Below, piece by piece: positions 21,335-53,151 of a stretch of DNA of 64,000 nt (the first letter of the stretch is position 1; every line of letters begins with the position of its first letter). The translations under genes were made by a program, and so were the position numbers. This stretch comes from Nordella sp. HKS 07 (GTDB lineage Bacteria; Pseudomonadota; Alphaproteobacteria; Rhizobiales; Aestuariivirgaceae). The stretch spans positions 4,358,001 to 4,422,000 of the forward strand of contig NZ_CP049258.1 in assembly GCF_011046735.1 (NCBI RefSeq), given 5' to 3'. The notes below the pieces were generated by a model, which searched no databases, was not told the origin of the DNA, and saw only the letters and a list, made by a program, of their open reading frames with translations.

Positions 21335-21490
21335 GGCCGCTGAAGCGCGGCTCAAGCGAGGTGCGTGGAAGCGTTCAGGCCAATGTGCTAAAAGTTCCGA
21401 ATCGCGGTTAGGCGACATTTCGGCGAGCGAGACGCCGTTGAGTCGCGTCTATGTGCTTGTGGCGGCACGCACCCACTCAGGGAGACTAAG

Positions 21491-28651: not shown

Positions 28652-29986
28652 ATGAAGATTACCATGATCGGCGCGGGGTATGTGGGACTTGTGTCCAGTG
28701 CAAGCTTCGCGGATTTCGGCCACGACGTTACCTGTGTCGACAAGGACCGGGCCAGAATCGACAAACTCAACTCCGGCAAAATTCCAATCTTTGAGCCCGG
28801 CCTCGACGCGCTGATCGAGCACAATATCAGCGGCGGTCGGCTCAGGTTCCAGACCGATCTGGCTTCCGCCGTCGCCGCCGCCGAGGTGGTCTTTATCGCG
28901 GTGGGCACACCGTCGCGCCGGGGCGACGGACACGCCGATCTCACCTATGTTCGGGATGCGGCTCGCGAGATCGCCAAGGCACTGGACGGCTTCACCGTCG
29001 TGGCGACCAAATCGACCGTGCCGGTCGGAACTGGCGACGAGGTCGAGCGCATCATTCGCGATGCCCGGCCGGACGCGGATTTCTCGGTTGCGTCAAACCC
29101 GGAGTTCCTGCGGGAAGGTTCGGCAATTCAGGACTTCAAGCATCCCGACCGCATTGTTGTCGGAGTGGCGGATGATCGGGCGAGAGCGGCCATGGCGGAG
29201 GTCTATCGGCCGCTTTATCTGAACGCGGCACCCATGGTCTACACCGACCGTCGCACGGCCGAACTGATCAAATATGCGGCGAATGCCTTTCTCGCTACAA
29301 AAATCACGTTTATCAATGAAATTGCCGATTTATCAGAAAAAGTCGGCGCCGACGTTCAGCAGGTCGCGAGGGCGATAGGACTCGATAACCGCATCGGCTC
29401 CAAATTCCTGCATGCTGGCCCTGGCTATGGCGGATCGTGTTTTCCGAAGGATACCGTCGCCCTGATCAAGATGGGCTTCGACAATGAGGCGCCGCTGCGC
29501 ATCGTGGAAAGCGTTGTCGCGGTGAACGAGAACCGGATGCGCGCCATGGGGCGGAAAGTTTACCAGGCTCTTGGCGGAAAGATCCGCGGAAAGACCATCG
29601 CGGTGCTCGGCCTTACGTTCAAGCCGAATACCGACGATATTCGGGAAAGCCCGGCTATACCGCTGATAACCGCCCTGCAGGACCTCGGAGCCAAAGTGAA
29701 TGTGTTCGATCCGGAAGGGATGGAGCATGCCAAGGATGTGATCTCGGATGTTAACTATCGCGACGGACCCTATGAATGCGCGGAGGGAGCCGAAGCGCTG
29801 GTTATTGCTACCGAATGGGAGCAGTTCCGCGCTCTTGATCTCGACAAGCTCAAAGCCGTCATGAGTGGTTCGACGATAGTCGACCTGCGCAATGTCTACC
29901 GGCCTGACGAGGTGGCGCGACGCGGCTTCTCGTACTTCAGCATAGGCCGTCCCCCGGCAACACCGAAAACCGACATTTCCCAATAA
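28652..29986 (+). CDS. ugd: UDP-glucose 6-dehydrogenase
   Basis: A 444-residue enzyme that oxidises UDP-glucose to UDP-glucuronate with two NAD. The Rossmann motif MIGAGYVGLVSSASFADFGH opens the protein, VATKSTVPVGTG and FLREGSAIQDF follow, and the catalytic cysteine is in GPGYGGSCFPKDT. The C-terminal domain has the usual FKPNTDDIRESPAI. This is the third nucleotide-sugar acid gene in the window. Its product would feed the UDP-glucuronate 4-epimerase at 7696 and the polysaccharide locus that follows. Confidence 0.94.
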   Translation: MKITMIGAGYVGLVSSASFADFGHDVTCVDKDRARIDKLNSGKIPIFEPGLDALIEHNISGGRLRFQTDLASAVAAAEVVFIAVGTPSRRGDGHADLTYVRDAAREIAKALDGFTVVATKSTVPVGTGDEVERIIRDARPDADFSVASNPEFLREGSAIQDFKHPDRIVVGVADDRARAAMAEVYRPLYLNAAPMVYTDRRTAELIKYAANAFLATKITFINEIADLSEKVGADVQQVARAIGLDNRIGSKFLHAGPGYGGSCFPKDTVALIKMGFDNEAPLRIVESVVAVNENRMRAMGRKVYQALGGKIRGKTIAVLGLTFKPNTDDIRESPAIPLITALQDLGAKVNVFDPEGMEHAKDVISDVNYRDGPYECAEGAEALVIATEWEQFRALDLDKLKAVMSGSTIVDLRNVYRPDEVARRGFSYFSIGRPPATPKTDISQ

Positions 29987-30146: not shown

Positions 30147-31067
30147 ATGACCTTGCCTTTAGCTTGCAGCAAGCTGACCCATCTTGAACGACTGGAAGCC
30201 GAGAGCATCCACATCATCCGCGAGGTTGCGGCTGAATGCGAGCATCCGGTGATGCTGTATTCGATCGGCAAGGATTCGGCGGTGATGCTGCATCTGGCGA
30301 TGAAGGCGTTTTATCCCTCGAAGCCGCCGTTTCCCTTGATGCATGTCGATACGACCTGGAAGTTCCGCGACATGATCGCCTTTCGCGACCAGACGGTGGC
30401 CAAGCTCGGCCTCGACCTCATCGTCCATACCAACCCGGACGGCCTCGCCAAGAAGGTCAATCCCTTCGATCACGGCTCGGCGCTGCACACCCAGATCATG
30501 AAGACCGACGCGCTCAAGCAGGCGCTCGACAAATATGGCTTCGACGCCGCCTTTGGCGGGGCCAGGCGCGATGAGGAGAAGTCGCGCGCCAAGGAGCGCA
30601 TCTTCTCCTTCCGCGACTCACGTCACCGCTGGGACCCCAAGAACCAGCGCCCGGAGCTGTGGAACATCTACAATGCCCGCAAGAACAAGGGCGAGTCGAT
30701 CCGCGTCTTCCCGCTGTCGAACTGGACCGAGCTCGACATCTGGCAATATATCTTCCTCGAGAACATCCCGATCGTGCCCTTGTATTTCGCCAAGGAGCGC
30801 CCGGTCGTCATGCGCGACGGCCAGATCATCATGGTCGACGACGAGCGCATGCCGCTGCATGTGGGAGAGAGCCCTGAGATGAAGCTGATCCGCTTCCGCA
30901 CGCTGGGCTGCTACCCCCTGACCGGGGCCATCGAATCCACCGCCGCGAGCCTGCTCGACATCATCCAGGAGATGCTGGTGACGACCTCGTCCGAGCGCCA
31001 GGGCCGGGTGATCGACAAGGACCAGGCCGCCTCGATGGAGAAGAAGAAGCAGGAGGGATATTTCTGA
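30147..31067 (+). CDS. cysD: Sulfate adenylyltransferase subunit 2 (CysD)
   Basis: A 306-residue ATP sulfurylase small subunit, which makes APS from sulfate and ATP with CysN. The PP-loop is clear ([20 protein letters not shown]). [20 protein letters not shown] and [14 protein letters not shown] are standard CysD segments, as is the C-terminal KKKQEGYF. The longer frame starts at 30090, but ATG 30147 is preceded by GGAAGGA and gives the normal length. Its stop overlaps the ATG of a small repeat-borne frame (TGATG), which in turn overlaps cysNC. Location at the head of a polysaccharide locus suggests sulfate activation for sulfation. Confidence 0.95.
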
Positions 31068-31399
31068 TGCGCGTTGCACTCCCCCATCCTTGCGCCGAGG
31101 CGCCGTTCCCCCTACTCGTCATGGCCGGGCTTGACCCGGCCATCCAGACGGGACGCCATGGAGCTGCCGTGGGGATGGGCTGGATGGCCGCCTCGAGGGC
31201 GGCCATGACGAATGAGGTAAGACGGCTACCTGGCGCCGAGACGCCATTCCCCACGCTCGTCATGGCCGGGCTTGACCCGGCCATCCAGACGGGACGCCAG
31301 AGAGCTGCCGTGGGGATGGGCTGGATGGCCGCCTCAAGGGCGGCCATGACGAGTTGGGCAAAGGTACATAAGAGCACTGAGAGAGAGATTTACCGCTGA
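31067..31399 (+). CDS. Repeat-derived small frame coupled to both cysD and cysNC
   Basis: A 110-codon open frame made almost wholly of two 120-base repeats, so its protein repeats [13 protein letters not shown] and [11 protein letters not shown]. Its ATG overlaps the cysD stop (TGATG at 31065-31069) and its TGA overlaps the cysNC start (TGATG at 31397-31401). It may therefore be translated simply to carry ribosomes across the inserted repeats. Peptides of this sort appear wherever this repeat family is translated, and no function is implied. It could also be untranslated filler. Confidence 0.4.
31092..31211 (+). repeat. Palindromic intergenic repeat, first of two tandem copies
   Basis: A 120-base unit with CGTCATGGCCGGGCTTGACC near one side and GGCCGCC then GGCGGCCATGACG near the other, so its ends can pair (CGTCATGGCC with GGCCATGACG). 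The internal GGGCTTGACCCGG is a second small palindrome. Elements of this type are widespread between genes in Hyphomicrobiales. Here it lies within the cysD-cysNC transcript. Confidence 0.85.
31233..31352 (+). repeat. Palindromic intergenic repeat, second of two tandem copies
   Basis: A second 120-base copy in the same orientation, 141 bases downstream of the first in period, with only scattered differences (for example CGAGACGCCA versus CGAGGCGCCG at the start). The near identity points to a recent tandem duplication or double insertion. Confidence 0.85.
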
Positions 31400-33333
31400 T
31401 GTCACGCTTCATCGAGTTCCAGGGCGGCGATGTCGAGGCCTATCTGCGCTCGCAGGAGGAGAGGGACCTCTTGCGCTTCATCACCTGCGGCAGCGTCGAT
31501 GACGGCAAGTCCACCCTGATCGGCCGGCTTCTCTACGAGGCCAAGATGCTGTTCGAGGACCAGCTCTCCGCTTTGGAGGCGGATTCGAAGCGGGTCGGCA
31601 CCCAGGGCGGGGCGCTGGATTTCGCGCTGCTCGTCGACGGCCTCGCCGCCGAGCGCGAGCAGGGCATCACCATCGACGTCGCCTATCGCGCCTTCACCAC
31701 CGACAAGCGCAAGTTCATCGTCGCCGATACGCCCGGCCATGAGCAATATACCCGCAACATGGCGACCGGCGCCTCGACCGCCGATCTCGCCATCATCCTG
31801 ATCGATGCCAGGAAGGGCGTGCTCACCCAGACGCGCCGGCATTCCTTCATCGCCACCTTGCTCGGCATCAGGAACATCGTGGTCGCCGTCAACAAGATGG
31901 ACCTGATGGATTATCGCCGCGACGTGTTCGAGGCGATCGAGGCGGATTACCGCGCCTTCGCCAAGAACCTCGGGCTCGAGGACTTCACCTGCATCCCGCT
32001 CTCGGCCTTGAAGGGCGACAATGTGATCGAGCCGTCCGAGGCGATGGCCTGGTATCACGGGCCGACCCTGATGGCGCATCTCGAGAGCGTGGCCATCGGC
32101 GATGGCCCGAGCGACGGCGCCTTGCGTCTGCCGGTGCAATGGGTGAACCGGCCGAACCAGGCGTTTCGCGGCTTTTCCGGCAATGTCGTGGCGGGCATGG
32201 TGAAGCCCGGCGATGAGATCCGCGCCGTACCCTCGGGGCGCACCTCGAAGGTCGAGCGCATCGTCACCTATGACGGCGATCTCGCTGAGGCGACCGCCGG
32301 CCAGGCGGTGACGGTGACGCTCGAAGACGAGATCGATATCAGCCGCGGCGATGTGATCTGTGCGGCGGCCTCGCCGCTTGCCGTCGCCGACAAGTTCGAG
32401 ACCCGCATCCTGTGGATGGACGATGAGGAGATGCTGCCGGGCCGCCCCTATCTGATCAAGGCCGGTCCCCTCACCATACCCGTCACCTTCGAGCACCCCA
32501 AGCACAAGGTCAATGTCAACACCCTCGAGCATGTGGCGGCCAAGACCCTCGGCCTCAACGAGATCGGCGTCGTCAATATCGATCTCGACCGCGCCATCCC
32601 CTTCGCGCCCTATGATGAGAACCGCCATCTCGGCAGCTTCGTCGTCATCGACCGCTTCTCCAACAACACCGTCGGCATGGGGCTGATCAACTTCGCGCTG
32701 CGCCGCGCCTCCAACATCCACTGGCAGGCGCTGGATGTGAATAAAGCTTCCCGCGCCGCCAAGGCCGGCCAGAAACCGACCATCCTGTGGTTCACCGGCC
32801 TGTCGGGCTCGGGCAAGTCGACCATCGCCAATCTGGTCGAGAAGCGCCTGCATGCCATGGGCCACATAACCTACCTGCTCGACGGCGACAATGTGCGCCA
32901 CGGCCTCAACAAGGATCTCGGCTTCACCGATGCCGACCGCGTCGAGAACATCCGCCGCGTCGCCGAAGTGGCGAGGCTAATGGTCGATGCCGGCCTCATC
33001 GTGCTGGTCTCCTTCATCTCGCCGTTCCGCTCCGAGCGTCTGATGGCGCGCGAGCTGGTGGGCGAAGGCGAGTTCGTCGAGATCTTCGTCGACACGCCGC
33101 TCGCCGTCGCCGAAAGCCGCGACGTGAAGGGCCTCTATGCCAAGGCAAGGCGGGGCGAGATCAAGAACTTCACCGGCATCGATTCCGACTATGAGGTGCC
33201 GCAGAGACCTGAGCTGCGTCTCGACACGACGACGCTCTCCTCCGAACAGGCGGCCCAGCAGATCATCAGCCATCTCACCGGCGCCGGCCGCCTCTCACCC
33301 GACAGCTCCGTCAACGGAGCGCCGGATTTCTAG
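31399..33333 (+). CDS. cysNC: Bifunctional CysNC: ATP sulfurylase GTPase subunit / APS kinase
   Basis: A 644-residue fusion. The CysN part (about residues 1-450) has GTPase motifs [26 protein letters not shown] and NKMD. The APS kinase part (about 460-640) has Walker [19 protein letters not shown] and the family segments [15 protein letters not shown] and [16 protein letters not shown]. With CysD it turns sulfate into PAPS, the universal sulfuryl donor. Related rhizobial NodPQ proteins supply PAPS for Nod factor and polysaccharide sulfation. Three sulfotransferases lie within the next 10 kb. The TAG stop is the first three bases of the repeat that follows. Confidence 0.95.
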
Positions 33334-33547
33334 AGCGCCGGACGCTCACATAGAATCGGGCCGGCGCTCTAACTCTTTGATTTGCGCATCGGATTATCCG
33401 AAAACCGCTTCGCACTTTTCGGTCCGATGCTCTAGCGCGCATCCCGGCGAAGTGGAATCACTTCGCCGAAAAGGATTCGCGCCAAATCAATATGTTGGCG
33501 CAAATCCTTATCGCCAAAGTCTTCAACTTTGGCGGGATTTGCTCTAA
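33331..33547. repeat. Interspersed palindromic intergenic repeat, copy B (complete)
   Basis: About 217 bases between cysNC and a sulfotransferase, made of three parts. The first is a hairpin pair (TAGAGCGCCGG with CCGGCGCTCTA), the second a middle part (CGCATCGGATTATCCGAAAA to CTTTTCGGTCCGATGCTCTA), and the third a right part (CGGCGAAGTGGAATCACTTC and CGCCAAAGTCTTCAACTTTG). The first two parts recur inverted at 53152-53260, and the right part recurs inverted at 2724-2838. It lies between convergent genes and could serve as a transcription end. The stop codon of cysNC is inside it. Confidence 0.85.
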
Positions 33548-33556
33548 TGAGGCCAT

Positions 33557-34402
33557 TCACGCGATATGCCAGCCAGTCGTGGCGATGAGCTCCTTTGCCC
33601 GGGCCGACAGTTCCCTGGCGCAGCGCGCTTCTATGAGCTCGGCCTGATCGCTGTTCAGGTAATCTGAGAAACCGCCCACCTTGCCCTTGCGCATGCGCAA
33701 ACTTTCATTGTCTGTCAGATCGTAATTATGGGCCGGAATGCCCTCGCTTCTCTCGCGGTCGCGCATAGCCTCAAACTGGGATGCATCGACCGCCATCTTC
33801 ACTGCTTCACGATCAACCGCATAGTTGAGGAAGGACAAGACTTTCGTCGTCGCGGCAACAGGATCGGCGCTGAGAGCCTCGTAGCTCAGAACATAATGCG
33901 GATGGCGCTGGAGACCGTCCCCCCAGCCGTTCAAATAGGCGATGAGCGGCGTCAGGCCTTGGTCGGGATGGGCAAGAAATTCCGACATGCCGCCGTTGAA
34001 TCGGTGCTTGTGCCGGGTCGCATGAAAATATGCGGATACCAGCACGTCGCGAGGATCGCGCACCATGAAGATGACCGGCCTATTGAGGAATATGGAGCGG
34101 CGATAACCATGGTGCGTGACGACAATCAGGGGAATCCGCGATTGGAACCGCGCTTGCCGAAAGGCCGGGATCCCCCGAACAGGGTCGCAATCGAAGTTGG
34201 GTACGATGGAGAATGTGCTGTGAAGGTCGACGCCGACCTTGAGATCCGCCGTCGTATTGAAATAGTTTGAGAGAATGAACCGGAACCAGGTGCGGCCGGA
34301 CTTGGGATAGGATGTCAGGAAGCTCGTGGCGGCGGCGGCGTCTGCCACGAGACGGGTGCGGTTCCTTGCCTTGCGGAGCAGTCGCAATGCCAGATTGGTC
34401 AT
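33557..34402 (-). CDS. PAPS-dependent sulfotransferase 1
   Basis: A 281-residue cytoplasmic sulfotransferase. The 5'-phosphosulfate loop is SYPKSGRTWFRFIL (about residues 31-44). The 3'-phosphate-binding region is VIFMVRDPRDVLVSAYFHAT, followed by a LSYEALSADPVA segment; all are typical of the Sulfotransfer_1 family. It overlaps the upstream glycosyltransferase gene by four bases (34399-34402), so the sugar transfer and the sulfation are probably coupled in one transcript. The acceptor is likely a glycan intermediate of this locus; the exact position is unknown. Confidence 0.88.
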   Translation of the reverse strand: MTNLALRLLRKARNRTRLVADAAAATSFLTSYPKSGRTWFRFILSNYFNTTADLKVGVDLHSTFSIVPNFDCDPVRGIPAFRQARFQSRIPLIVVTHHGYRRSIFLNRPVIFMVRDPRDVLVSAYFHATRHKHRFNGGMSEFLAHPDQGLTPLIAYLNGWGDGLQRHPHYVLSYEALSADPVAATTKVLSFLNYAVDREAVKMAVDASQFEAMRDRERSEGIPAHNYDLTDNESLRMRKGKVGGFSDYLNSDQAELIEARCARELSARAKELIATTGWHIA

Positions 34403-35532
34403 GATGGAAGCTTATGCTTCGTCTGCAATGCATCGCGGACGACGTTGTCCCATTCGGCCATTACCCGCTCCCGCGAATAGCGCTTTACAGCTTCGGCGGC
34501 TGTCGTGCCCAGTTGCCGGCGCAGTGTGTCGTCCTTCATTATTTTAACCAGAGCGCCGGAAAGCGACGCCACGTCTTCGGCCGGAACAAGCAATCCATCT
34601 ACGCCATCATTGATCATTTCACGCGGGCCCCATTCACAATCGAAGGAGACGACGGGCAATCCCGCCGCCATCGCCTCCAGCAGAACAATCCCCCAACCTT
34701 CGTAGCGCGATGACAGGACGAAGGCGTCGGCGGTCTCGATCCAGATGCCAGGGCGCTCGGTTACACCGGGGAAATGCACCCGGCCATTCAGGCCGAGCTC
34801 GTCACGCTGACGTTCGAGCTTCGCCCGGTCCGGACCTTCGCCCCAGATCGTCAGCGACCATTCCGGCGCCGCCGCCGCCGCCCGCGCAAAGGCCTGGAGC
34901 AGCAGATCGAAACCCTTTTGCGGCACGAGTCGCCCGACGGCGACTAGAGTGTGATTTCCGCGCCGCTCCTGCCAGGCCTGCGGCAATTCGACCGGGTTAG
35001 GAATGACCCATTCGCGGCGGCGCATCTTCTTTGGAAAGTATTCCAGCGCGCCCTTTGTCATCGTCACCAACCCAAATGCCCGGGGGTAGGTCAGGGCCCT
35101 AAGCCAATGCCAGGGAGCGCCAAATGGCTGAAGCGCCGGATTATTGCGCTCCGACACGACGACAGGCACCGGCAGTCCCCGTGTCGACAGCAGGGTGAGG
35201 ACATTCGTCCGCGTGAGAAACGACACGATCACGTCGGGCAGCGACTTGCGAAATGCCCGTCTGAGCGCCAAAGCGCGGTGCGTCGCAGCGCGCACGGTGC
35301 CGAGCTTCGAGGGTTGGGAGGCTGCAGAGCCCAGCTGCTGCACCGTGATAGCCGGGTTAATGGGGTAGTATGCCGCCGTTCCCGGCGCCTCGAAGGTGAG
35401 GATTGACACGCGCCAACCCCGCTTCGCCCAATGTTCCGATATCAGGCTCACTATCCGTTCGGTTCCCCCGGCGCTGAGGCCGGGTATGACAATGGTGACG
35501 GTTCTGCTCTTTTCGGGATCTCGTGCGTCCAT
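34399..35532 (-). CDS. GT4-family glycosyltransferase
   Basis: A 377-residue GT-B glycosyltransferase. The N-terminal GLSAGGTERIVSLISEHWAK is the acceptor-side motif. The C-terminal donor domain (GRLVPQKGFDLLLQAFARA, then EGWGIVLLEAMAAGLPVVSF with two conserved Glu residues) is the GT4 signature. ATG 35532 fits. It forms a two-gene operon with the sulfotransferase that follows. Such enzymes transfer a sugar from a nucleotide donor to a lipid-linked oligosaccharide at the inner membrane; the sugar cannot be predicted. Confidence 0.9.
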   Translation of the reverse strand: MDARDPEKSRTVTIVIPGLSAGGTERIVSLISEHWAKRGWRVSILTFEAPGTAAYYPINPAITVQQLGSAASQPSKLGTVRAATHRALALRRAFRKSLPDVIVSFLTRTNVLTLLSTRGLPVPVVVSERNNPALQPFGAPWHWLRALTYPRAFGLVTMTKGALEYFPKKMRRREWVIPNPVELPQAWQERRGNHTLVAVGRLVPQKGFDLLLQAFARAAAAAPEWSLTIWGEGPDRAKLERQRDELGLNGRVHFPGVTERPGIWIETADAFVLSSRYEGWGIVLLEAMAAGLPVVSFDCEWGPREMINDGVDGLLVPAEDVASLSGALVKIMKDDTLRRQLGTTAAEAVKRYSRERVMAEWDNVVRDALQTKHKLPS

Positions 35533-35872
35533 GCCAGGCTACATCCGCGCACTTTCGAAAGCACATGGGGAACTTGCGGCATCTTTTTCCTTTGCTAGGA
35601 AGAATGGCCGCAAAGCAGGTTGACCGATGTGCTGTCAATCACCCATTCGATAAAATAGCATTCGTCCGCTTCTTTTGGTAGGAGTCCTTTTGAGACTGGC
35701 ATGGACCCAGAAAGGCAACGGTCGACGCCCTTTTCGAAGCTTTGCATAGTATCCCCATTTTCTGGACCGATCCGGAGCTGATTTGCGCCATGCGCTGTCG
35801 GATGAAGCAGAATAGAGCTTGGCTCTGTGTGCGAGCCGTCGATTGGCTTATTTCGAGTCGACGCGAGCGCCA
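35533..35872. other. Divergent intergenic region
   Basis: About 340 bases between a glycosyltransferase (minus) and the flippase (plus), lacking a supported gene. A 92-codon minus frame at 35595-35873 has no recognisable domain. The two promoters of the divergent operons are expected here but no clear box was found. Confidence 0.5.
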
Positions 35873-37252
35873 ATGAACATCGCGAAGAGCCTCGCGCACC
35901 TCTTTCAGGCTAAGGAAGCGCTTGGCAAGCGCATCTTGAACGTCGCACATCTGCTGACGGGAAACCTCTTCACGTCGTTGGTTTCCCTTCTCACATTCGC
36001 ACTCACGGCGCGCGCCCTCGGGCCGAATGACTACGGCATGCTGGCGCTCGTCTACTCTTATACAAGGGCGATCGAGAGGATCGTGAGCTTTCAATCCTGG
36101 CAACCGCTCATCAAATACGGAAGTTCCCTGAGCGAGGACAAGGACCAGGCGAAATTCAGCTCGCTGATCAAGTTCGGTCTTGTGCTTGATGTAACAGGCG
36201 CGGTGATATCCTGGATCGTGGCGATCGGGCTTGTGCTCATTGCCGCGCCGCTCTTCGGCTGGAGCGATCAGACGGTCAATCTGGTCCTGATCTACTCTAC
36301 GGTTCTGTTGTTCCGGCTGACCGGCATGCCCACGGCGGTGTTGCGGATCTACGGCCGCTTTCGCACCATAGCCTATGGACAACTGGGTGGCGTCACGTTC
36401 AAGCTGATCCTCTGCGTCATCGGAATTCTGGCTGGCGGCGGCATCGTGTATTTCGCGTTCGCCTGGCTGTTCTCGCAGATCGTCAGTTCCGTGGTTACAG
36501 TCGTCTTCGCGTTTCGCCAGCTTCACCTGCGTGGCGCCAAGCGCGTATTGTTTGCTCCACTCCGGGGCACTCTTCACCAGTTCCCGGGTATCTGGAACTT
36601 TGCCTGGTCAAGCAACTTGTCGCTGACCATCCGCTCGAGCGCCCAGGAACTTGACACGCTCCTTGTAGGAGCCTTGGCTGATCCGGCATCAGCCGGCCTC
36701 TACAACATCGCGAAACGCATCGGGCGAATGGGCCAGCAAGTCGGAACACAGGTACAGGCGGTCTTGTATCCGGACTTGGCCAGGCTTTGGGCCCAGCGCG
36801 CCGTTGAAGAATTCTATCGCGCCGTCATGCAGATCGAGGTCCTTCTCACCGTCACCGGCATCGCGATCTTTGTGTTGTTCTATTTCCTTGGGGAGCCCCT
36901 CCTGCGCATTGCGGCCGGTCCCGAATTTGCGGCGGCCTCCCAGTTGCTCATTGTCCAGGCCGTGGCGATGGTCCTCATACTGTCTGGCAGCGCCATGCGT
37001 TCGGCATTGCTGGCGATGGGACAGCACCGGATAGTCCTGAAGATCGTCCTGGTCGCCACGGTGGCGTTCCATGCCACCGCGATCCTGCTCATCCCGCAAA
37101 TCGGCGCAATGGGAGCGAACATTGCCCATATTGTTCTTGGCCTCATCTGGGTCGTCGGGCTGGGGATTGCATTTCATCGGGGACGCCGGTCGACAGACAA
37201 GATCGAGGAAGTGCCGAAGGGCGCCATGATCGTCGATGACGGCGAAATATGA
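35873..37252 (+). CDS. Polysaccharide flippase (Wzx-like, MOP superfamily)
   Basis: A 459-residue membrane protein with about twelve hydrophobic segments. The N-terminal region NVAHLLTGNLFTSLVSLLTF then ALTARALGPNDYGMLALVYS matches the opening of the oligosaccharide flippase family. Wzx proteins move undecaprenyl-linked repeat units to the periplasm. The frame is open upstream to 35819, but ATG 35873 starts a typical Wzx N-terminus; a good ribosome-binding site is not evident. A polymerase gene at 39650 completes a Wzx/Wzy pair. Confidence 0.87.
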   Translation: MNIAKSLAHLFQAKEALGKRILNVAHLLTGNLFTSLVSLLTFALTARALGPNDYGMLALVYSYTRAIERIVSFQSWQPLIKYGSSLSEDKDQAKFSSLIKFGLVLDVTGAVISWIVAIGLVLIAAPLFGWSDQTVNLVLIYSTVLLFRLTGMPTAVLRIYGRFRTIAYGQLGGVTFKLILCVIGILAGGGIVYFAFAWLFSQIVSSVVTVVFAFRQLHLRGAKRVLFAPLRGTLHQFPGIWNFAWSSNLSLTIRSSAQELDTLLVGALADPASAGLYNIAKRIGRMGQQVGTQVQAVLYPDLARLWAQRAVEEFYRAVMQIEVLLTVTGIAIFVLFYFLGEPLLRIAAGPEFAAASQLLIVQAVAMVLILSGSAMRSALLAMGQHRIVLKIVLVATVAFHATAILLIPQIGAMGANIAHIVLGLIWVVGLGIAFHRGRRSTDKIEEVPKGAMIVDDGEI

Positions 37253-37300
37253 AAAAGCTTCGCTTTCCCAGGGCTGGGCGAACGGCTTACGGAGATACCC

Positions 37301-38698
37301 ATGAATATCCGTGTTCTTCTGCTAACGCTGCCCGTGCTCATCACGGCGGTGACTGAAGTCAACCTGTCTGCACAGGCCGAACCGGTCAAGGCACTCTCGC
37401 CGCAGCTCCCCGACGGTAGCCAGCGGGCATTTCCTACCGCTGAAGGGTTCGGAGCTGCCGCCAAAGGAGGCCGTGGCGGCGCCGTCATCTATGTCACCAA
37501 CACCGACGAGGCGGGACCGGGTTCTCTGAGGGAGTGTATCGAAGCAACCGGGCCTCGTACCTGCATCTTTCGGGTTGGGGGAACCATTCAACTGGACAAA
37601 GGCTCGCTGGTCATCCGTAACCCATTCATCACCATTGCGGGGGAAACGGCTCCGGGCGGTGGAATAGCCATTCGCAATGGCAGCACTCAAATCAGGCCAT
37701 CGATAGAGATCAAGACGAACGACGTCATCATCCGACATCTGCGCCTTCGCCCGGGGCCCCATACGGTCAAGGCGTGTTGCTCCGGGGCGTTGGGCATGTA
37801 TACGCCCGCCGCGCGCAATATCATGCTCGATCACATTTCCGCAAGCTGGGGGTCGGACGAGACCATCGATTCGGAAGACGCGTCGAACTTCACGTTTCAG
37901 TGGGGACTGGTGGGCGAGCCGCTGTTGAATGGCGGGCCGGGCAAGAAGAATCGCGCACGCAACATGCTCTTTACCAAGGGCGGCAATCTGACCATACACC
38001 ACACGCTTTTCACCACGGGGAAGTTCAGGAATCCCCAGGTCAAGATGAAGCTTCCGGACTCCGTCGCCGACGTCGTCAATAACGTAATGTACTCGCCCGA
38101 ATGGCAGTATGTCGTGAGCTTTGGCGATGAGTGGGTTCACATGCGTGCCAACGTGGTGGGAAATTACAAGCTCGCGGGTGTGAATGAGAAAAATGATCAC
38201 CTGGTGGCTGTGTTCGAAGAAAGTGGGCTAGGGTTTTCGATATTTCTTCAAGGCAATTTCGACGGCTCATATCGCCCGGATGCTGCGGGGCCGGAGGATC
38301 TGGTCATGGCCCCAGAACAGCGGAAATATATCGTGACGACTAGAAACCCGGCGCCGGAAGTCAGAACGACCTCTCCGCAGCAGGCTTATGATGACGTGCT
38401 CGCCAATGCCGGCGCGACCAGACCGGTGCGCGATGCGGTCGACGCGAGGCTGATCGAGGATGTCAAGAACCGCCGCGGCAAGCTGCTGAAATCGGATCCG
38501 GAAAAGGTCGGAGGCTGGCCGCAGCTGGAATCTGGCACGCCATATGCAGACAGTGATAAAGACGGCATTTCGGACCAATGGGAAGAGGCACATGGACTGA
38601 ATCCGAACGACGGCTCGGACGCACAGTTGGACAGGAATGGCGATGGCTGGACGAATCTTGAGGAATTTCTGCACAATCTCGCCGGTGATCCGCAGTAG
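37301..38698 (+). CDS. Secreted pectate-lyase-like parallel beta-helix protein
   Basis: A 465-residue exported protein. A signal peptide covers about residues 1-26. The catalytic-type region begins FPTAEGFGAAAKGGRGG and VYVTNTDEAGPGSLRE-like strands, then DVIIRHLRLRPG and NIMLDHISASWGSDET, the vWiDH-like row of pectate lyase family 1. The C-terminus has two calcium loops (DSDKDGISDQWEEAHGLNPN and DRNGDGWTNLEEF). Such enzymes cleave uronic-acid polymers by beta-elimination. In this locus it may trim or release the cell's own polymer, or degrade host pectin. It follows the flippase by 48 bases. Confidence 0.87.
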   Translation: MNIRVLLLTLPVLITAVTEVNLSAQAEPVKALSPQLPDGSQRAFPTAEGFGAAAKGGRGGAVIYVTNTDEAGPGSLRECIEATGPRTCIFRVGGTIQLDKGSLVIRNPFITIAGETAPGGGIAIRNGSTQIRPSIEIKTNDVIIRHLRLRPGPHTVKACCSGALGMYTPAARNIMLDHISASWGSDETIDSEDASNFTFQWGLVGEPLLNGGPGKKNRARNMLFTKGGNLTIHHTLFTTGKFRNPQVKMKLPDSVADVVNNVMYSPEWQYVVSFGDEWVHMRANVVGNYKLAGVNEKNDHLVAVFEESGLGFSIFLQGNFDGSYRPDAAGPEDLVMAPEQRKYIVTTRNPAPEVRTTSPQQAYDDVLANAGATRPVRDAVDARLIEDVKNRRGKLLKSDPEKVGGWPQLESGTPYADSDKDGISDQWEEAHGLNPNDGSDAQLDRNGDGWTNLEEFLHNLAGDPQ

Positions 38699-38751
38699 CG
38701 CAAGCGGGCTGAACTATGTGCTCGACAGTGAAAACGCGATGATGAGGCCTG

Positions 38752-39696
38752 ATGGAAGCTCTCAAATCTGAAGTGGCAAGTGGATTGCCGAAGCTGGTGT
38801 ATATCGCCGGCTACGGCCGCAGCGGCAGCACCGTCCTGAGCATCGCGCTCGGACAGCATAAGGAGATATTCGGGTGCGGCGAGATCATCACTCTGGGGCA
38901 TCACGTGTGGGAGAACAACGAGTACTGCTCGTGTGGCAGTCCTATTCACGATTGTGAATTCTGGCGTGAAACGGTGGCTCTTTGGGGAAAAGAGGAGAGC
39001 CCGTCGCTGGTGAGCGACTATGGGAAGCTCCAGGACCAGTTCGAGTCGTTGATCAGCATTTCCAGGATGCTACGGAAGACTTTGAGACGGGAGAGTTTCA
39101 ATACATACTCCCGCCACACACTGAGGCTGCTGGAAGTGGTTTCGAAGCGCTCCAGCAGAGGACTCGTCGTCGATTCGTCCAAGCATCCAGGCCGGGCGGC
39201 GGCGCTGGCCCTTATTCCCGGACTTGATTTATACGTCATTCACCTGGTCCGCGACGGCCGCGGCGTGGCATGGTCGCTCCTCAAAGCCTATCAACGGGAC
39301 AAACGGATCGGATTGCAGAAGGATATTGAAGCAAAGCCTGTCATGCGCACCGCCTTTCGATGGGCGACCGTAAATCTGGCGACTGAAAGTCTGGCGCGCA
39401 GGCTCGGCCCTCGGCGATTTGTGCGGATCCGCTACGAAGACTTCACGCGTGATCCAAAGGAGTGTTTGAAGAAGATCGGTGACTTGATCGGCGCGGATTT
39501 CGGCGACTTGGGCGATCAGATCAATGCGGGGATGCCGTTGGAGCCGGGGCATCAGATGGCCGGCAATCGTCTTAGAATGAATGCCACCATAGAGCTCTCG
39601 CCCGATGTCAAATGGAAGTCGCAGATGCCCGGCCGCAAGCAGGCCCTGTTCACCTGGCTCTGTGCCTGGCTGCTGCGGCGCTACGGATATCTTTGA
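38752..39696 (+). CDS. PAPS-dependent sulfotransferase 2
   Basis: A 314-residue sulfotransferase-family protein. The phosphosulfate-binding loop is IAGYGRSGSTVLSIALGQHK near residues 18-37. A cluster of cysteines (NNEYCSCGSPIHDCEFW) follows, then VVDSSKHPGRAAAL and the 3'-phosphate region VIHLVRDGRGVAWSLLKAYQ. It is distinct from the other two sulfotransferases and resembles the Sulfotransfer_3 type. It starts 53 bases after the lyase-like gene. Its 3' end overlaps the end of the convergent polymerase gene by 47 bases. Confidence 0.86.
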   Translation: MEALKSEVASGLPKLVYIAGYGRSGSTVLSIALGQHKEIFGCGEIITLGHHVWENNEYCSCGSPIHDCEFWRETVALWGKEESPSLVSDYGKLQDQFESLISISRMLRKTLRRESFNTYSRHTLRLLEVVSKRSSRGLVVDSSKHPGRAAALALIPGLDLYVIHLVRDGRGVAWSLLKAYQRDKRIGLQKDIEAKPVMRTAFRWATVNLATESLARRLGPRRFVRIRYEDFTRDPKECLKKIGDLIGADFGDLGDQINAGMPLEPGHQMAGNRLRMNATIELSPDVKWKSQMPGRKQALFTWLCAWLLRRYGYL

Positions 39697-40993
39697 TCGT
39701 CACGTAGGTTTCCTTCTTGCGCTGCTCAATCGCCCATGCGCGTAGATGCACCGCCACAATGCCGATACTGATCAGGACCGGCGTTGTCCAGTAGCGGCCG
39801 TACATGTGCGGATTCGAGAAGGCAATAAGAAGAAACACGCCGCAGGTTGCTAGCGTGCTTGCCGCTACATGGCGTTCAAGACGAAGGCGCCACGCCGAAT
39901 AGGCGAGAGTGATGCCTACGCCGGCGTAGAACAGCCAGCCGAAAAGGGCCACCAGGCCTCCTTCCACCCAGAGAAGCAGATAGATATTGTGGACGGGGGC
40001 GTTCTGCACGCTGATCGTGCGAAACTGGTCGGCGCCTATGCCAAGCAGCAGAATCTGTTTTGCCGAAATGACGCTGAGCGCTTCGAGCATCAATTGTGTC
40101 CGCGAAACGAATGAACCTGCTTCGTCAATGTCCCCTGTGGTAAGTGCCCCGAGGACGCGCTTCTGAAAAGCTGACGGCAAGAGGTCTAAGCCGCCTACAT
40201 ACAGAATGACCGCTAATATCAGCGCGAGGATGGAAAGCCGCACCAGGAGCCTGACATTTGCCACGAGGCCGATAAAGATCAGCAGGCTGAGGGTCATGGC
40301 GGCAAGGCCGCTGTTGGAGCTTGTGAGGACGACGGTCACGACGATGATCGCGAGAAGCGTGGACGCGAGCCAACGCGGAAGTCGGCCGGCGAACCACAGA
40401 TACAGCAAGCTTGGAATTACCAGGGCGTTGATGGCGCCGGCAAGATTGGGGTTTCCCAGGATGGTCGCCAGACGACGCGCGCCTGTGACGATTCCCTTGC
40501 CCTCGCCAGGGAGGGTGGGAACGTATCCGACAAGATAGAACGACAGGATACCGTGAATGTCGATGACGATCACACCTGCCAGGAAAAGCATGGCGAGCTT
40601 TTGCATCCTGTCGATGTCGCCGCGAATGACGAGGGGGACCAGCAGGACATAGGCGAAGAGATACTGCACGCAGACAAGAAGACCGCGAGCCGCATCGCCG
40701 TTAATGAGACTCGCTCCAAGCAGGCCGAGAAGAAGCAGAGCTGAGCCGAACATCCAGTACCACATCGCGGACCGCAGGGGAGAACGCGGGATGAGTCCGG
40801 CGAGGATCAGCACGCCAAAGCTTGCACAATAAAACAGGTCGCTGATCGTGAAGTTGAGCCCGAAGAACCTGAACGTCGCGAAAGGCGAGAGAAACACGGC
40901 GAGATATGTCGAGATCGTCTCCAGCCGTATCATGGTCGGGTGCTTGGAGCTCGAGTAGCTTTCGTTCCAAGCGGCGGCGGGGGTCAGTGACAT
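39650..40993 (-). CDS. O-antigen/exopolysaccharide polymerase (Wzy-like)
   Basis: A 447-residue membrane protein with about ten to twelve hydrophobic segments and a large loop (about residues 270-320, with LLGIGADQFRTISVQNAPVH) before the last helices. That loop matches the Wzy_C/O-antigen ligase region. It would join repeat units in the periplasm. ATG 40993 gives MSLTPAAAW. Wzy proteins diverge greatly, so the call rests on topology and the loop motif. The convergent overlap with the sulfotransferase gene is unusual. Confidence 0.83.
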   Translation of the reverse strand: MSLTPAAAWNESYSSSKHPTMIRLETISTYLAVFLSPFATFRFFGLNFTISDLFYCASFGVLILAGLIPRSPLRSAMWYWMFGSALLLLGLLGASLINGDAARGLLVCVQYLFAYVLLVPLVIRGDIDRMQKLAMLFLAGVIVIDIHGILSFYLVGYVPTLPGEGKGIVTGARRLATILGNPNLAGAINALVIPSLLYLWFAGRLPRWLASTLLAIIVVTVVLTSSNSGLAAMTLSLLIFIGLVANVRLLVRLSILALILAVILYVGGLDLLPSAFQKRVLGALTTGDIDEAGSFVSRTQLMLEALSVISAKQILLLGIGADQFRTISVQNAPVHNIYLLLWVEGGLVALFGWLFYAGVGITLAYSAWRLRLERHVAASTLATCGVFLLIAFSNPHMYGRYWTTPVLISIGIVAVHLRAWAIEQRKKETYVTIKDIRSAAAARHRAR

Positions 40994-41063
40994 GGCGAAA
41001 ATACCCGGCTGAGACCCGGTGCCTGGTCAAGAGGACATGGGTGTCTGGTGTTTGGTCTGTCTG

Positions 41064-42230
41064 TCATTGCGGGCGCAAGAGGTTGTCATAAGTCTGCGTC
41101 ACGGAGGTCACATGCCGCGCCGCCCCAAAGCGCTCATGCGCATCGGCCCGGGCGCGACCGACCATTGACGTGACCCGGTCCGGATGCTGAAACAGCTCCG
41201 CTATCGCGCGAGCAAAGGCAACCGGATCCTCGGGCTCGACCAGGACGCCCGTTTCATTATGCCGGATCGCTTCCGGATTTCCGCCCGAGCGGGTGGCGAT
41301 CACCGGGGTGCCGAGCAGCATCGCCTCGACGAGCGTCCGACCCAACGGCTCATTGACCGCCGGCACGAGAAGGGCGTCGAGCGCGGCCATCCAAGGCTCG
41401 CCCGGGTACCGAAAGCCCAGCAGCCTGATCTTGTCTGACACGCCCAGGCTCTCGGCACGAGCCCTGCAGAGCTCATCCAGTCCGTTGAAGGAATTTCCCA
41501 GAAGGAGGCCGATGAATTTCTCGTTTGGAGAGTGTTTCGACAGGGCTGCGAGGGTATCGACAAAGAGCAGGGGTCTCTTCCGCTCCACCAGACTGCCGAC
41601 ATATCCCAGCAGCTTCGTATCTGGAGGGCACTGGAGCTCGGCCAAAACGCGCTCCCGGCAGGCGGCTCTATCGAACTGATCCGGCATCTGCAGGTCGAAA
41701 GGACTGTGAATGACGGTGCATTTGCGGGCCGCCGACAACAGGCCGGGCCGCGGCGACGCAAACTTGGAGACGGACACGACGCTGTCGGCGAGCCAGGGAG
41801 CGAGATAGCGAAGCCCGAAGGAGTCGGGATCTCCGCGATGATGCCAGAGCAGCTTTGCGCCGGCCAGCTTGGCGGCGAGCCCCCAGATGATATGGGCTCT
41901 CCCGTCATTGGTATGGACGACGGCCACCTTGTTGTTGCGCAGGAAGCGAACGAGAGAAGGCAGCAGCCGCAGGACGCTTGCGACCGCCGCTCCGTTCCGT
42001 GGCGACATGCGCTCTGGCGTGTCGGCCATGGGCGCCGGCACGAAGGTCACATTCTCCCGCGTCAACAGTTCGGCCAGCGGACCTTCGGGTTTGTGAAGAA
42101 CGACAAGGGGTTGGAACCCGGTGGGCGCCAGATTCTTCACCAGTCCCAGCGCCGAGATATGGCTTCCGGCGAGGACATCGCCGACAAAGGGAAAGCAGAC
42201 GACAGCCTTAGGGTGTGAAATGTCTTCCAT
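41064..42230 (-). CDS. GT4-family glycosyltransferase
   Basis: A 388-residue GT-B glycosyltransferase. The N-terminal acceptor domain begins FPFVGDVLAGSHISALGLVK. The donor domain has GYVGSLVERKRPLLFVDTLA and EAMLLGTPVIATRSGGNPEA with the conserved Glu. It lies on the same strand as the polymerase, 70 bases upstream, and probably shares its transcript. The sugar donor is unknown. Confidence 0.88.
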   Translation of the reverse strand: MEDISHPKAVVCFPFVGDVLAGSHISALGLVKNLAPTGFQPLVVLHKPEGPLAELLTRENVTFVPAPMADTPERMSPRNGAAVASVLRLLPSLVRFLRNNKVAVVHTNDGRAHIIWGLAAKLAGAKLLWHHRGDPDSFGLRYLAPWLADSVVSVSKFASPRPGLLSAARKCTVIHSPFDLQMPDQFDRAACRERVLAELQCPPDTKLLGYVGSLVERKRPLLFVDTLAALSKHSPNEKFIGLLLGNSFNGLDELCRARAESLGVSDKIRLLGFRYPGEPWMAALDALLVPAVNEPLGRTLVEAMLLGTPVIATRSGGNPEAIRHNETGVLVEPEDPVAFARAIAELFQHPDRVTSMVGRARADAHERFGAARHVTSVTQTYDNLLRPQ

Positions 42231-42388
42231 TTTTCATTTTCTAGTGGAATGTATCGCTAGGGCATTATAGAGGATTTGTGGCTTTAAAGCCAACCGGCAC
42301 TCGCGGGCGCCGGTTCGCCGATGATCTGACGATCCAGCAATGATCACCGCTTGACCCTTTTCCGGTGCATAGGTTGGTTGAATTCAAA

Positions 42389-43237
42389 ATGAAAATCACG
42401 GATGTGAACTTTCTGATCATAGGCGCCACGAAGAGTGCCACGACCTGGCTGCAGCGGTCCTTGCAGAACGATCCGGACATACTCATGCCCGATCCGGAAC
42501 TGCACTATTTCAGTCGGGAGTTTCATCGTGGGCAGGATTGGTATCTGGCTCAATTCCCGGAATACAGCGGTCAACCCTTCGTGGGCGAGAAATCAAACTC
42601 CTACCTCGAGGAACCCCTGGCCGCATCGCGCATACACGCCTCGTTGGGCAATGTGAAACTACTTGCTCAGTTACGCAATCCGATTGACCGTGCCTATTCG
42701 GACTACTGCATGCTCTTTCGGCGCGGAGAGGTGAATGGCGATATCGGCCAGTATCTCGACCCGCGCACCGCCGCGGATAATCGCTTCCTCGGTGGCGGGC
42801 GATATCACAGGCAACTTGAGCGATATTATGACCTGTTTCCATCCAGCCAACTGTTTGTGATCTTCTATGAAGACCTGCTCGTTCAACCCGATGCGCAATT
42901 GCGGAAAGTAAGACACTATCTCGGGGCGCTCAACGACAGCTACGCGTCTCCGGTGTCGGGCCGCATCAAGGACAAGAATATGCCGATCGTCGGCGGCGGG
43001 CATAGCGGTTATTTGAAGTGGCTGAAGCCGATGGCGTCTCCTTTTCGATCGACCAGGGCCTACAAGGCAGCGAAGCAGTTTTTCTCGCAGCCGGTTGAAT
43101 ACAGTCCGCTTGGCACCGAGCTGCGGGCCCGCCTTGTCGACTACTATTCGGATGACACCGAGAAACTGGGCAAGATCATCGGTCGGGATCTGTCAGGCTG
43201 GCTTGGAAACGTGTCACGGGATGCCTCGCCAAGGTAG
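42389..43237 (+). CDS. PAPS-dependent sulfotransferase 3 (heparan-type)
   Basis: A 282-residue sulfotransferase. NFLIIGATKSATTWLQRSLQ is the phosphosulfate loop and VKLLAQLRNPIDRAYSDYCM the 3'-phosphate region; FYEDLLVQPDAQLRKV follows. This layout matches bacterial relatives of heparan sulfate N- and O-sulfotransferases, which act on polysaccharide chains. The frame can start at GTG 42365; ATG 42389 is preferred because it begins at the beta-strand before the loop. It is a third, different sulfotransferase in the same locus. Confidence 0.86.
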   Translation: MKITDVNFLIIGATKSATTWLQRSLQNDPDILMPDPELHYFSREFHRGQDWYLAQFPEYSGQPFVGEKSNSYLEEPLAASRIHASLGNVKLLAQLRNPIDRAYSDYCMLFRRGEVNGDIGQYLDPRTAADNRFLGGGRYHRQLERYYDLFPSSQLFVIFYEDLLVQPDAQLRKVRHYLGALNDSYASPVSGRIKDKNMPIVGGGHSGYLKWLKPMASPFRSTRAYKAAKQFFSQPVEYSPLGTELRARLVDYYSDDTEKLGKIIGRDLSGWLGNVSRDASPR

Positions 43238-43333
43238 CTACAGGAGCACAATCCGTCTGACTGACCGAGCGCGCCCGTGAGCAACACTCTGGCAATGCGA
43301 AGGCGCCGAGAGCGCTGATCCTGGCCTAAGAAT

Positions 43334-44151
43334 TCATTCGCCGCGGTCTGAGGACGGTTTCCTTCCCAAGGCGTCATTGCTATTCGCAGGGGTGAACAAG
43401 CTGCTGATTGTGGGATCCGCCAGCGAGCTGAGTATGGTTCCCTCAATGAGCGTATACGTTTTTCCCTCCAACGTGATGTGGGCTCCATTGTAGGGAGGGA
43501 ACCAGAATGCCCGAATCTTCCGGTCTATGTCGTCACCCGGCGCAATTGCCTTCATTTCTTCCATTTCCAGTCGACTGACATACCGACCACCTTCGTTGGG
43601 AAACGTCGACAACATCTGCGTGCTTGCGATGGCTTTATGGAGGATGGTCTTGATCTGGTTCAATAATTGGGATTGCGTCTGACGCTCCAGATCCCGGGCG
43701 GTGATCCTCCCGCTTTCTATCTCGAACCAGGACACATCAATGATCGGTCCGGTATCGATGTTCGCGTCAGCGTAGTGCGCTGATACTGCCCATTTGTCCA
43801 ACCCTTCCAGGATGGCGAGGTTGTATCCGGCTGTTCCCTTGTAAAGCGGCAATGGCGCAGGATGGAAATTGATGACGCCCTTTCGGGCCGCAGAAAGGAC
43901 GGGCTCCCTTATCTTCTGCCAGTACAATACGGACACGCCCAGATCAAAATCCACTGTCCCCAGTCGCACCATATTCTCGATCTCGTGCCTGGAATACAGG
44001 GGGAGGTGCAGCTTCTTTGCCAGATCGCCTGTCACGGAAACGGGCAGATGCGCATCCGTAACGACGCCGACTATTTCCTGACCATTGTCGACAAGCCATT
44101 GTAGAGCAGTCGCGGCAACATGTTCCGTCCCATGAATAAGACTTTAGTCAC
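43334..44151 (-). pseudogene. Formyltransferase (sugar N-formyltransferase-like), N-terminal frameshift
   Basis: The main frame (from 44035 down to 43334) encodes a Formyl_trans_N domain: the catalytic Asn-His-Asp set appears as GVINFHPAPLPLYKGTAG and later ANIDTGPII. The same frame reads upstream without a start codon (TEHVAATALQWLVDNGQEIV). A perfect GGAGG ribosome-binding site with GTG at 44151 lies in another frame and encodes VTKVLFMG, the missing first strand. One missing base between about 44137 and 44119 would join them into a normal protein of about 272 residues. A GTG at 44035 could give a truncated product. Sugar formyltransferases act on 4-amino-sugar nucleotides using 10-formyl-tetrahydrofolate. 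Confidence 0.82.
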
Positions 44152-46395: not shown

Positions 46396-47520
46396 CTAAG
46401 ACAGCCCCATTTGGGTCAGCAATAGACGATTGACGGCATGGACGTTGAAGCGTTCACGCGCAATTTGATTTGAGCGGCGTCCCATCTCGATAGTTGCGGA
46501 TGGCGTGGCGATGAAGGACTCCATCGCCTTTGCCAGCGCGAGGGGATCTCGCGGCGGCACCAAGTAGCCGTTTTGTCCTTCAACGACGGTATCCCGGCAC
46601 CCGGGCAAATCCGTCGTTACAATCGCCCGACCCGATGCCATCGCTTCCAGAATGCTGCGTGGTATGCCTTCCCGGTAATAGGACGGCAACACGAAGACGC
46701 TGCAATTCGCGAAGTAGGGGCGCACGTCGCGCGTTTCACCGAGATACTCGACGAGCCCTTCAGCCGTCCATTTGTCGATGTCGGCTTGGCTGATCCCTGC
46801 CGCATTTGGTTCAAATGGGCCCAGCAGTTGCGCGCGAATGTCGGGGAAGCGCTGGCGCAGGTGACGGACAGCTTCGACAAACTCGCATATGCCCTTTTCC
46901 CGCAATAGTCTCGCAATCAGCAGAAAGACGGGTGGACTCGTCGGGGGAGTGGTCATCGTATAGTGGGAAAGATCGACACCGGATCCCGGGATCAGGGAAA
47001 TCAGCGAATAGTTGTCGATCAATTTGTGCTTGCGAATATCCCGGTCATCGGCGTCGTTGTAGACGAATACCCGATCGACTCCGCGCAATGCCACTCGATA
47101 GAGTGCGACGCTCAAACGCTGCAGGACGGCTTGGCGGCCCTTCGGGTTCTCCGTGGCAAATACTTGGCCAAGCCCCGTGATGAGGGCGAAGCGGCGGGAG
47201 ACGCCCGCCGCGCGAGCGGCGAGGCAGGCATAGATAACCGGCTTCATCGTGTAAGGAAGAACGATGTCGGGCTTCAGCTGTCGGAACTGACGCCATAGGG
47301 TGACCAGTGTGTGCAAGTCCTGAAGCGGGTTGAGCCCCGTGCGCGCCATCGGAATCTGAACAAACCGGATATTCTCATCTTCAAGCGCCTTTGCCACCAC
47401 GGGGTCCGGATCCGGCGCGAAGGCGATAACCTCGTGGCCGGCCTTGACCATTTCGCGTAGCAGCTGCAAACGGAAATTGGTCAGCGAATATGTAAAGCTA
47501 GCGATTACGGCGATGCGCAT
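46396..47520 (-). CDS. GT4-family glycosyltransferase
   Basis: A 374-residue GT-B glycosyltransferase. The N-terminus IAVIASFTYSLTNFRLQLLR and DIVLPYTMKPVIYACLAARA match a subgroup that often transfers N-acetyl-hexosamine or uronic acid in capsule loci. The donor domain has LLIARLLREKGICEFVEAVR and RSILEAMASGRAIVTTDLPG with the conserved Glu. It follows the Wzz-like gene convergently by six bases. Donor sugar unknown. Confidence 0.88.
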   Translation of the reverse strand: MRIAVIASFTYSLTNFRLQLLREMVKAGHEVIAFAPDPDPVVAKALEDENIRFVQIPMARTGLNPLQDLHTLVTLWRQFRQLKPDIVLPYTMKPVIYACLAARAAGVSRRFALITGLGQVFATENPKGRQAVLQRLSVALYRVALRGVDRVFVYNDADDRDIRKHKLIDNYSLISLIPGSGVDLSHYTMTTPPTSPPVFLLIARLLREKGICEFVEAVRHLRQRFPDIRAQLLGPFEPNAAGISQADIDKWTAEGLVEYLGETRDVRPYFANCSVFVLPSYYREGIPRSILEAMASGRAIVTTDLPGCRDTVVEGQNGYLVPPRDPLALAKAMESFIATPSATIEMGRRSNQIARERFNVHAVNRLLLTQMGLS

Positions 47521-49577: not shown

Positions 49578-49881
49578 GGAGGATCAACTCAGCAGGCGCG
49601 AACCCCAGGCACGCAGAGGAGCTCCGCGCCATGTCCGGCGCGAAGCTAGCTTTTTAAACCTAACTCTCGGGAGGGGCGTGAGGTGTCATCCGTTCGACTT
49701 TCCTGATCAGATCAATCGAGCTTGACTCTTTTCAAAGTGAATCTCGTTCGCAACTTTAGATGGCATAAACTGGAAGATCCTTAATGATTTCCATTATTTT
49801 CAATGCCTCATTTTCCCTGATCTTATGCTATAATTGACCTCTTGGTTAGCTGAAAAATGGCTCGGTAAGGGTAAGGTTCAG
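49578..49881. other. Divergent AT-rich intergenic region
   Basis: About 300 bases between a minus-strand glycosyltransferase and the plus-strand export gene. From about 49720 it is distinctly AT-rich and carries an extended -10 promoter candidate (see 49826-49834). No gene is supported here; the export frame opens at 49834, but its true start is 49882. Confidence 0.5.
49826..49834 (+). promoter_or_regulatory. Extended -10 promoter candidate for the export operon
   Basis: TGCTATAAT matches the extended -10 form (TGnTATAAT) with no good -35 box, 48 bases before ATG 49882 and within an AT-rich stretch. It would drive the export, sugar-transferase and aminotransferase genes. Confidence 0.5.
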
Positions 49882-51201: not shown

Positions 51202-51208
51202 CGGTCCT

Positions 51209-51898: not shown

Positions 51899-51944
51899 AT
51901 TTCGTGCCGTTTTGCATGGGGGCTCCAGCGCAGGTAGGTCTTTG

Positions 51945-53132: not shown

Positions 53133-53151
53133 TCGCGCAAGGATCGGATGC

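Follow-up and report, generated by a model that had tools for sequence, protein, structure and literature searches.

Why would a bacterium keep genes for making the sulfate donor 3'-phosphoadenosine 5'-phosphosulfate (PAPS) inside a polysaccharide locus, beside three different sulfotransferase genes? The question is raised by a 64,000-nucleotide stretch of the Nordella sp. HKS 07 genome (contig NZ_CP049258.1, positions 4,358,001 to 4,422,000; hereafter the window, in whose numbering coordinates are given). Here cysD and a gene for a CysN-CysC fusion protein (cysNC; together cysDNC) and the sulfotransferase genes ST1, ST2 and ST3 belong to a locus with a Wzx/Wzy/Wzc/Wza set that spans ~28652-58312, from ugd to an FlmA-type dehydratase gene. 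We estimate a probability of about 0.72 that the product of this locus is a sulfated surface polysaccharide, assembled by the Wzx/Wzy route with PAPS supplied locally. What is novel, judged by sequence comparison, is that a known kind of locus has, apparently recently and independently, recruited cysDNC from its own genome.

CysDNC converts sulfate to adenosine 5'-phosphosulfate (APS) and then to PAPS, from which sulfotransferases carry out the transfer. A sequence-only reading of the window had placed cysD, a CysNC fusion and three sulfotransferases in a polysaccharide locus, and the profile searches bear this out with scores above the cut-offs and agreeing coordinates. CysD scores 558 bits against NF009214 (cut-off 413) and CysNC 1036 bits against NF004035 (cut-off 715), its C-terminal end being an APS kinase (PF01583, 230 bits); all three sulfotransferases exceed the Pfam gathering scores, ST3 with 53.0 bits for PF13469 and 46.8 bits for PF00685. 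Also recovered were the glycosyltransferases, flippase (35819-37252) and polymerase (39650-40993) of the same reading, in a locus that extends beyond the span of 30147-43237 it had described; the assembly and export genes point to a polymer as product, as that reading had inferred, and not to a Nod factor. ST1-ST3 are intact, and each retains both PAPS motifs, the 5'-loop (PKSGRTW, GRSGST and TKSATTW) and the R...S second motif. The likely CysD start is the ATG at 30147, with AAGGA upstream; ST3 may start at ATG 42389 or, alternatively, at GTG 42365. The features central to the argument are as follows, with identities to pSymB referring to the locus of Sinorhizobium meliloti strain ml47 (comparison stretch L066).

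30147..31067, plus strand: cysD, sulfate adenylyltransferase small subunit (NF009214); another copy lies elsewhere in the genome
31399..33333, plus strand: cysNC, sulfate adenylyltransferase large subunit fused to APS kinase, for PAPS synthesis (NF004035, PF01583)
30167..33321, plus strand: duplicated segment, 99.65% identical to G000:C1:1510149-1513303, with 11 mismatches
33330..33544: two abutting abundant dispersed repeats of ~110 bp each, near the 3' junction of the duplicated segment
33557..34402, minus strand: ST1, sulfotransferase (PKSGRTW; PF00685, 86.7 bits), 59% to a pSymB sulfotransferase (L066 11036-11878)
38752..39696, plus strand: ST2, sulfotransferase (GRSGST; PF13469, 53.7 bits), 52% to pSymB
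42389..43237, plus strand: ST3, sulfotransferase (TKSATTW; PF13469/PF00685), 53% to pSymB

Is this the only set of PAPS genes in the genome? A search of all 7,184,314 bases (one contig) returned two places each for cysD and APS kinase, one further place of the PAPS-reductase family, probably cysH, and no match to a Sat-type ATP sulfurylase (PF01747). The second cysD-cysNC, at 1.51 Mb, aligns to the window over 3155 bp without gaps, and the two CysNC proteins share 99.5% identity over 641 residues. The sequence-only reading had looked to such a second set as support for a dedicated sulfation role; its presence excludes the window cysDN as the sole copy of the genome and, because an older site exists elsewhere, the window copy would be free for that role. 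Neighbours of the 1.51-Mb copy include a cupin regulator, an ornithine-cyclodeaminase-like gene and aromatic lyases, with a sulfotransferase in none of the 10 neighbouring open reading frames scanned; those of the window copy are Wzx/Wzy polymer genes, with ugd directly upstream of cysD on the same strand.

Four other genomes of the genus were searched for CysNC. Three (G001, G002 and G003) hold one each, at 90-91% identity, and none was found in the fourth, which is 87% complete. DNA matches of the three extend into the flanks of the 1.51-Mb copy and end at the ends of the window copy; on this comparison the 1.51-Mb site is therefore ancestral and the window cysDNC derived, a young duplicate. 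The match runs from the end of the third native CysD codon to three codons before the window CysNC stop. Window CysD has a new in-frame start (MTLPLAC) behind the AAGGA, about its first seven codons being new and the remainder copied, and window CysNC has a new stop, followed immediately by the dispersed repeats. Polarised by the relatives, four of the 11 differences changed in the window copy, three in the native copy and four are mixed. Nine of them fall within the last 343 bp. Chance was considered as the cause of this clustering, which was equalled in 0 of 100,000 random draws (the 343-bp width having been set after the data were seen); the clustering suggests that the front parts of both copies have stayed identical through gene conversion. 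The spacer between cysD and cysNC contains two copies of a 124-bp repeat (31088-31211 and 31229-31352), at both genomic sites.

These observations could also be accommodated if cysDNC had simply been copied by chance and served general sulfate assimilation through gene dosage, with the sulfotransferases drawing on a common PAPS pool. Such a neutral duplication would account for copies that are nearly identical and for a bias of their differences toward one end, as expected under gene conversion; the abundant dispersed repeats at the 3' junction fit it as well, as does the finding that stretches within 5 kb of some sulfotransferase place make up 2.1% of the genome. We nevertheless regard it as unlikely: the window cysDNC is complete and unbroken, its new start comes with a ribosome-binding site, and the homologous loci considered below carry PAPS genes too. 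Of the 15 distinct sulfotransferase places in the genome, three fall in the locus, which makes up 0.41% of it; a match to either sulfotransferase family occurs in 2 of 14 control genomes.

The two dispersed repeat families of ~110 bp occur in the window at 33330-33544, 2726-2837 and 53150-53258 and have at least 45 matches genome-wide (40 of 268 candidates scored). One of these repeats closes each of two duplicated segments, cysDNC and a second copy of ST3. The latter includes the start of the adjacent glycosyltransferase gene (L018 10798-12123; G000:C1 ~2530798-2532123) and is 90.8% identical to window 41962-43296; part of the 33330 repeat begins 4 bp past its end, and a serine recombinase gene lies ~1 kb away (L018 8032-9723).

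What, then, is the locus into which cysDNC was copied? Its set for polymer assembly and export is complete (initiating transferase, Wzx, Wzy, Wzc and Wza) and is accompanied by four glycosyltransferases of family 4. The remaining members are listed here.

28652..29986, plus strand: ugd, UDP-glucose/GDP-mannose dehydrogenase family (PF03721/PF00984/PF03720), only 28% to an S. meliloti dehydrogenase
34399..35532, minus strand: glycosyltransferase family 4 (PF00534), 59% to pSymB
35819..37252, plus strand: Wzx flippase (PF13440/PF01943), 54% to pSymB
37301..38698, plus strand: PelZ-like, pectate-lyase-like protein with an apparent signal peptide, a conserved locus member (NF041900), 69% to pSymB
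39650..40993, minus strand: Wzy polymerase (PF04932), 51% to pSymB
41064..42230, minus strand: glycosyltransferase family 4 (PF13692), 59% to pSymB
43334..44035, minus strand: formyltransferase-like protein (PF00551), only 26% to a pSymB formyltransferase
44488..46389, plus strand: Wzc-type co-polymerase/tyrosine kinase (PF02706, PF13614), 43% to pSymB
46396..47520, minus strand: glycosyltransferase family 4, 56% to pSymB
47545..48498, minus strand: conserved locus protein without Pfam match, 52% to pSymB
48495..49577, minus strand: glycosyltransferase family 4, 60% to pSymB
49834..51201, plus strand: Wza-type export protein (PF02563), 37% to pSymB
51110..51898, plus strand: initiating sugar transferase (PF02397), 56% to pSymB
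51834..53132, plus strand: DegT-type aminotransferase (PF01041), 71% to pSymB
54048..54938, minus strand: NAD-dependent epimerase/dehydratase (PF01370), 32% to pSymB
54965..55978, minus strand: ATP-grasp protein, whose gene in the relatives is close to the nodPQ cassette
56201..58312, minus strand: FlmA/WbpM-type sugar 4,6-dehydratase (PF02719), 57% to pSymB

The PelZ-like protein scores 139 bits against NF041900, under the cut-off of 840, and by sequence comparison resembles the pectate lyase of PDB 9buj and VexL (6fi2). Outside the locus, the window holds a carbamoyltransferase gene apparently broken into two frames (15716-17459; N-terminal domain, then C-terminal part), and a 1279-residue protein with RTX and cadherin repeats plus a second RTX-repeat protein (17495-22681) adjoin HlyD and ABC secretion genes at 23878-27011; the pSymB locus also encodes a calcium-binding protein. 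With regard to possible control by cAMP/Clr, the window has a CHASE2-cyclase at 60515-62446, which is only 24% identical, over 197 residues, to the cyclase beside the pSymB locus.

Among the 23 window locus proteins, 15 match L066 at 50-71% identity, and the border of L066 carries cysQ-nodQ-cysD. Judging by where nodPQ and the three sulfotransferases lie, we take the L066 locus to be the published nodP2-SMb21248 cluster, which contains the sulfotransferases SMb21237, SMb21243 and SMb21249 and for which a sulfated polysaccharide was proposed in 2017 (PMC5498481). By these matches the window locus is a divergent homologue of that cluster. The two share homologues of ST1-ST3, the PelZ-like protein, Wzx, Wzy, Wzc, Wza, the DegT and FlmA proteins, the ATP-grasp protein and glycosyltransferases, as well as PAPS genes at the locus border. 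They differ in that the S. meliloti cluster is megaplasmid-borne, has a rearranged gene order and uses as PAPS genes nodP2Q2 with cysQ, which are 59-66% identical to the window copy. Clr raises the expression of seven genes of the cluster, including nodP2 and nodQ2, perhaps indirectly (PMC5498481).

PAPS genes are a recurrent part of such loci. We examined eight Sinorhizobium records (76 in that genus match the PelZ-like protein, one or more of them weakly), and cysD and cysNC/nodQ lie beside the locus in all eight, with NodQ of K101 divided between two matches. In a genome of the same order as Nordella (G732), the locus encloses NodPQ (83-85% to S. meliloti) together with CysQ, so that NodPQ-type cysD-cysNC is found beside or inside 9/9 homologous loci; as these are mostly of one genus, they amount to about two independent cases, plus the window. 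This presence of PAPS genes of another origin in every fuller homologous locus speaks against a chance duplication of cysDNC in the window. For all 14 core proteins compared, the window lies by identity outside the S. meliloti-G732 pair.

Did the window cysDNC arrive with the locus? Its arrival as a NodPQ cassette was ruled out by its 99.65% identity to the native copy versus 57-69% protein identity to NodPQ of the homologous loci. Both cysD of the genome are of the native type, and the NodPQ-CysQ cassette near the ATP-grasp gene is not present in the window locus. In a CysNC/NodQ tree of 14 rows, from which K101 was left out, the window and native CysNC pair (support 95/99) within the clade of the genus (100/100), and the NodQ rows of homologous loci form a separate clade (100/100) in which NodQ1 of S. 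meliloti, from pSymA, groups with the locus copies of S. meliloti, S. medicae and S. kummerowiae (100/99). On these comparisons, PAPS genes of two origins are coupled to one kind of locus. The nodP1Q1 and nodP2Q2 pair of S. meliloti 1021 (L125 on pSymA and L073 on pSymB) shows the same pattern as the window and native cysDNC: it is 99.0% identical over 2810 bp, about the coding span only, and of the 27 positions that differ a single one falls in the first half of the alignment, the differences being concentrated in the second. A bolder reading, which we offer tentatively as possible though somewhat doubtful, is that a high PAPS need of the polymer made lineages couple cassettes of different origin separately, Sinorhizobium and G732 using NodPQ-CysQ and the window locus a newly made copy of housekeeping cysDNC. 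NodP2Q2 of S. meliloti would then be primarily the donor for the polymer, and nodP1Q1 of pSymA, well known from Nod factors, would derive from the polymer cassette by late copying or by conversion.

Bacterial sulfotransferases act on many substrates. ST1-ST3 might thus modify lipopolysaccharide, lipids or small molecules and leave the sugar polymer without sulfate; ST1 is closest in the PDB to small-molecule sulfotransferases, and LpsS acts on the lipopolysaccharide of S. meliloti (PMC5498481). We consider this very unlikely, as all three sit among assembly genes, the pSymB locus encodes a homologue of each, and the solved chains nearest to ST3 are 3rnl and heparan sulfate 3-O-sulfotransferases. 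No Pfam match among the window proteins points to nod genes, no search having been aimed at nodABC or nodH.

Several observations weigh against a sulfated polymer with its own PAPS supply. Eight of the 23 locus proteins match L066 weakly (Wzc 43%, Wza 37%, epimerase 32%, Ugd 28%, formyltransferase 26%) or not at all (metallophosphoesterase, CysD and CysNC, the pSymB nodPQ lying outside L066). The sulfotransferase set varies among homologous loci: all three are present in six of eight Sinorhizobium loci, ST1 was not found in the stretch read of NGR234, nor ST1 and ST3 in that of S. americanum, and the G732 locus has ST2 and ST3, with ST1 not found in 59 kb. A scan of genome contigs with the PelZ-like protein yielded a partial relative on Ruegeria contig L019, with PelZ-like, Wzy and Wzc matches, where 21 kb contain no match to PAPS genes or ST1-ST3 and four locus proteins scanned gave no Pfam sulfotransferase. 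By its gene content, this case shows that PAPS genes are not near every locus with PelZ-like and Wzy genes, and it favours a neutral duplication; the scan returned this one Ruegeria locus and missed the Sinorhizobium carriers, and no distribution is drawn from it. ST2 weakly resembles polyketide synthase sulfotransferases in the PDB, and cysQ was not found in the window, to which the search for it was confined. Because both copies are nearly identical, the window cysDNC could, by its sequence, equally feed cysteine synthesis. Finally, among the matches listed in literature searches on the S. meliloti cluster, no structure of its polymer was found.

How might a sulfated polymer be made by this locus? 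The recent copy of the genome's older cysDNC, which sits downstream of ugd and begins with a new start codon, takes the place that a NodPQ cassette has in homologous loci, and it would presumably be co-expressed with the locus. CysD and the CysN part would convert sulfate and ATP to APS and the CysC part APS to PAPS, from which ST1, ST2 and ST3 may transfer sulfate to different positions of the repeat unit. Sulfation would probably be cytoplasmic, on the lipid-linked unit before Wzx flipping, an order that we infer from synechan, whose modification enzymes are described as acting on the lipid-linked unit before Wzx in Wzx/Wzy assembly (PMC8205485). After the flip, Wzy would polymerise the units and Wzc/Wza export the chains, which the PelZ-like lyase may trim or clear.

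The sequence-only reading took the arrangement to be rarely documented in its order outside Nod factors and a few rhizobial polysaccharides, a view that, in this form, the published S. meliloti cluster and a Vibrio capsule do not support. Vibrio sp. KMM 8419 has a sulfated capsule of solved structure and carries, like the window, a second cysC, cysN and cysD and three sulfotransferase genes in its polysaccharide cluster, one of the three enzymes being thought to act on O-antigen (PMC11641403); unlike the window product, it is an ABC-transporter capsule, and the likeness is one of description rather than gene by gene. The sulfated capsule cluster of Cobetia marina KMM 1449 likewise holds a cysN/cysC fusion, cysD and a sulfotransferase gene, but follows an ABC-transporter route and includes cysQ and a sulfate permease (PMC11766843). 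The xss locus of Synechocystis, for synechan, shares the Wzx/Wzy route and more than one sulfotransferase, and there mutants were made and sulfate was measured; it differs in having two sulfotransferases, and its main text is without the terms APS kinase and adenylyl (PMC8205485). Among the matches listed in our literature searches, we found no published work on duplicated cysNC in such loci. As to distribution, single marker proteins were counted in genome samples at strict thresholds: the PelZ-like protein occurs in 1 of 69 family genomes (E 1e-60) and 1 of 385 class genomes (E 1e-90), its own in both cases, the class sample being too thin to show absence, and ST2 in 2 of 397 order genomes, its own and G732 (E 1e-30). 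By these counts the distribution looks patchy, and the locus may have arrived by transfer.

To our knowledge, little is known of bacterial sulfated polysaccharides outside marine bacteria and cyanobacteria. Since the homologous loci of three lineages each carry PAPS genes, attached in two separate ways, sulfation is likely to be a selected trait. The locus thereby bears on the roles of nodP2Q2 and the three sulfotransferases of S. meliloti, which can be tested in that model strain, and the paired, near-identical PAPS cassettes of two lineages allow duplication and gene conversion to be studied in a small natural experiment.

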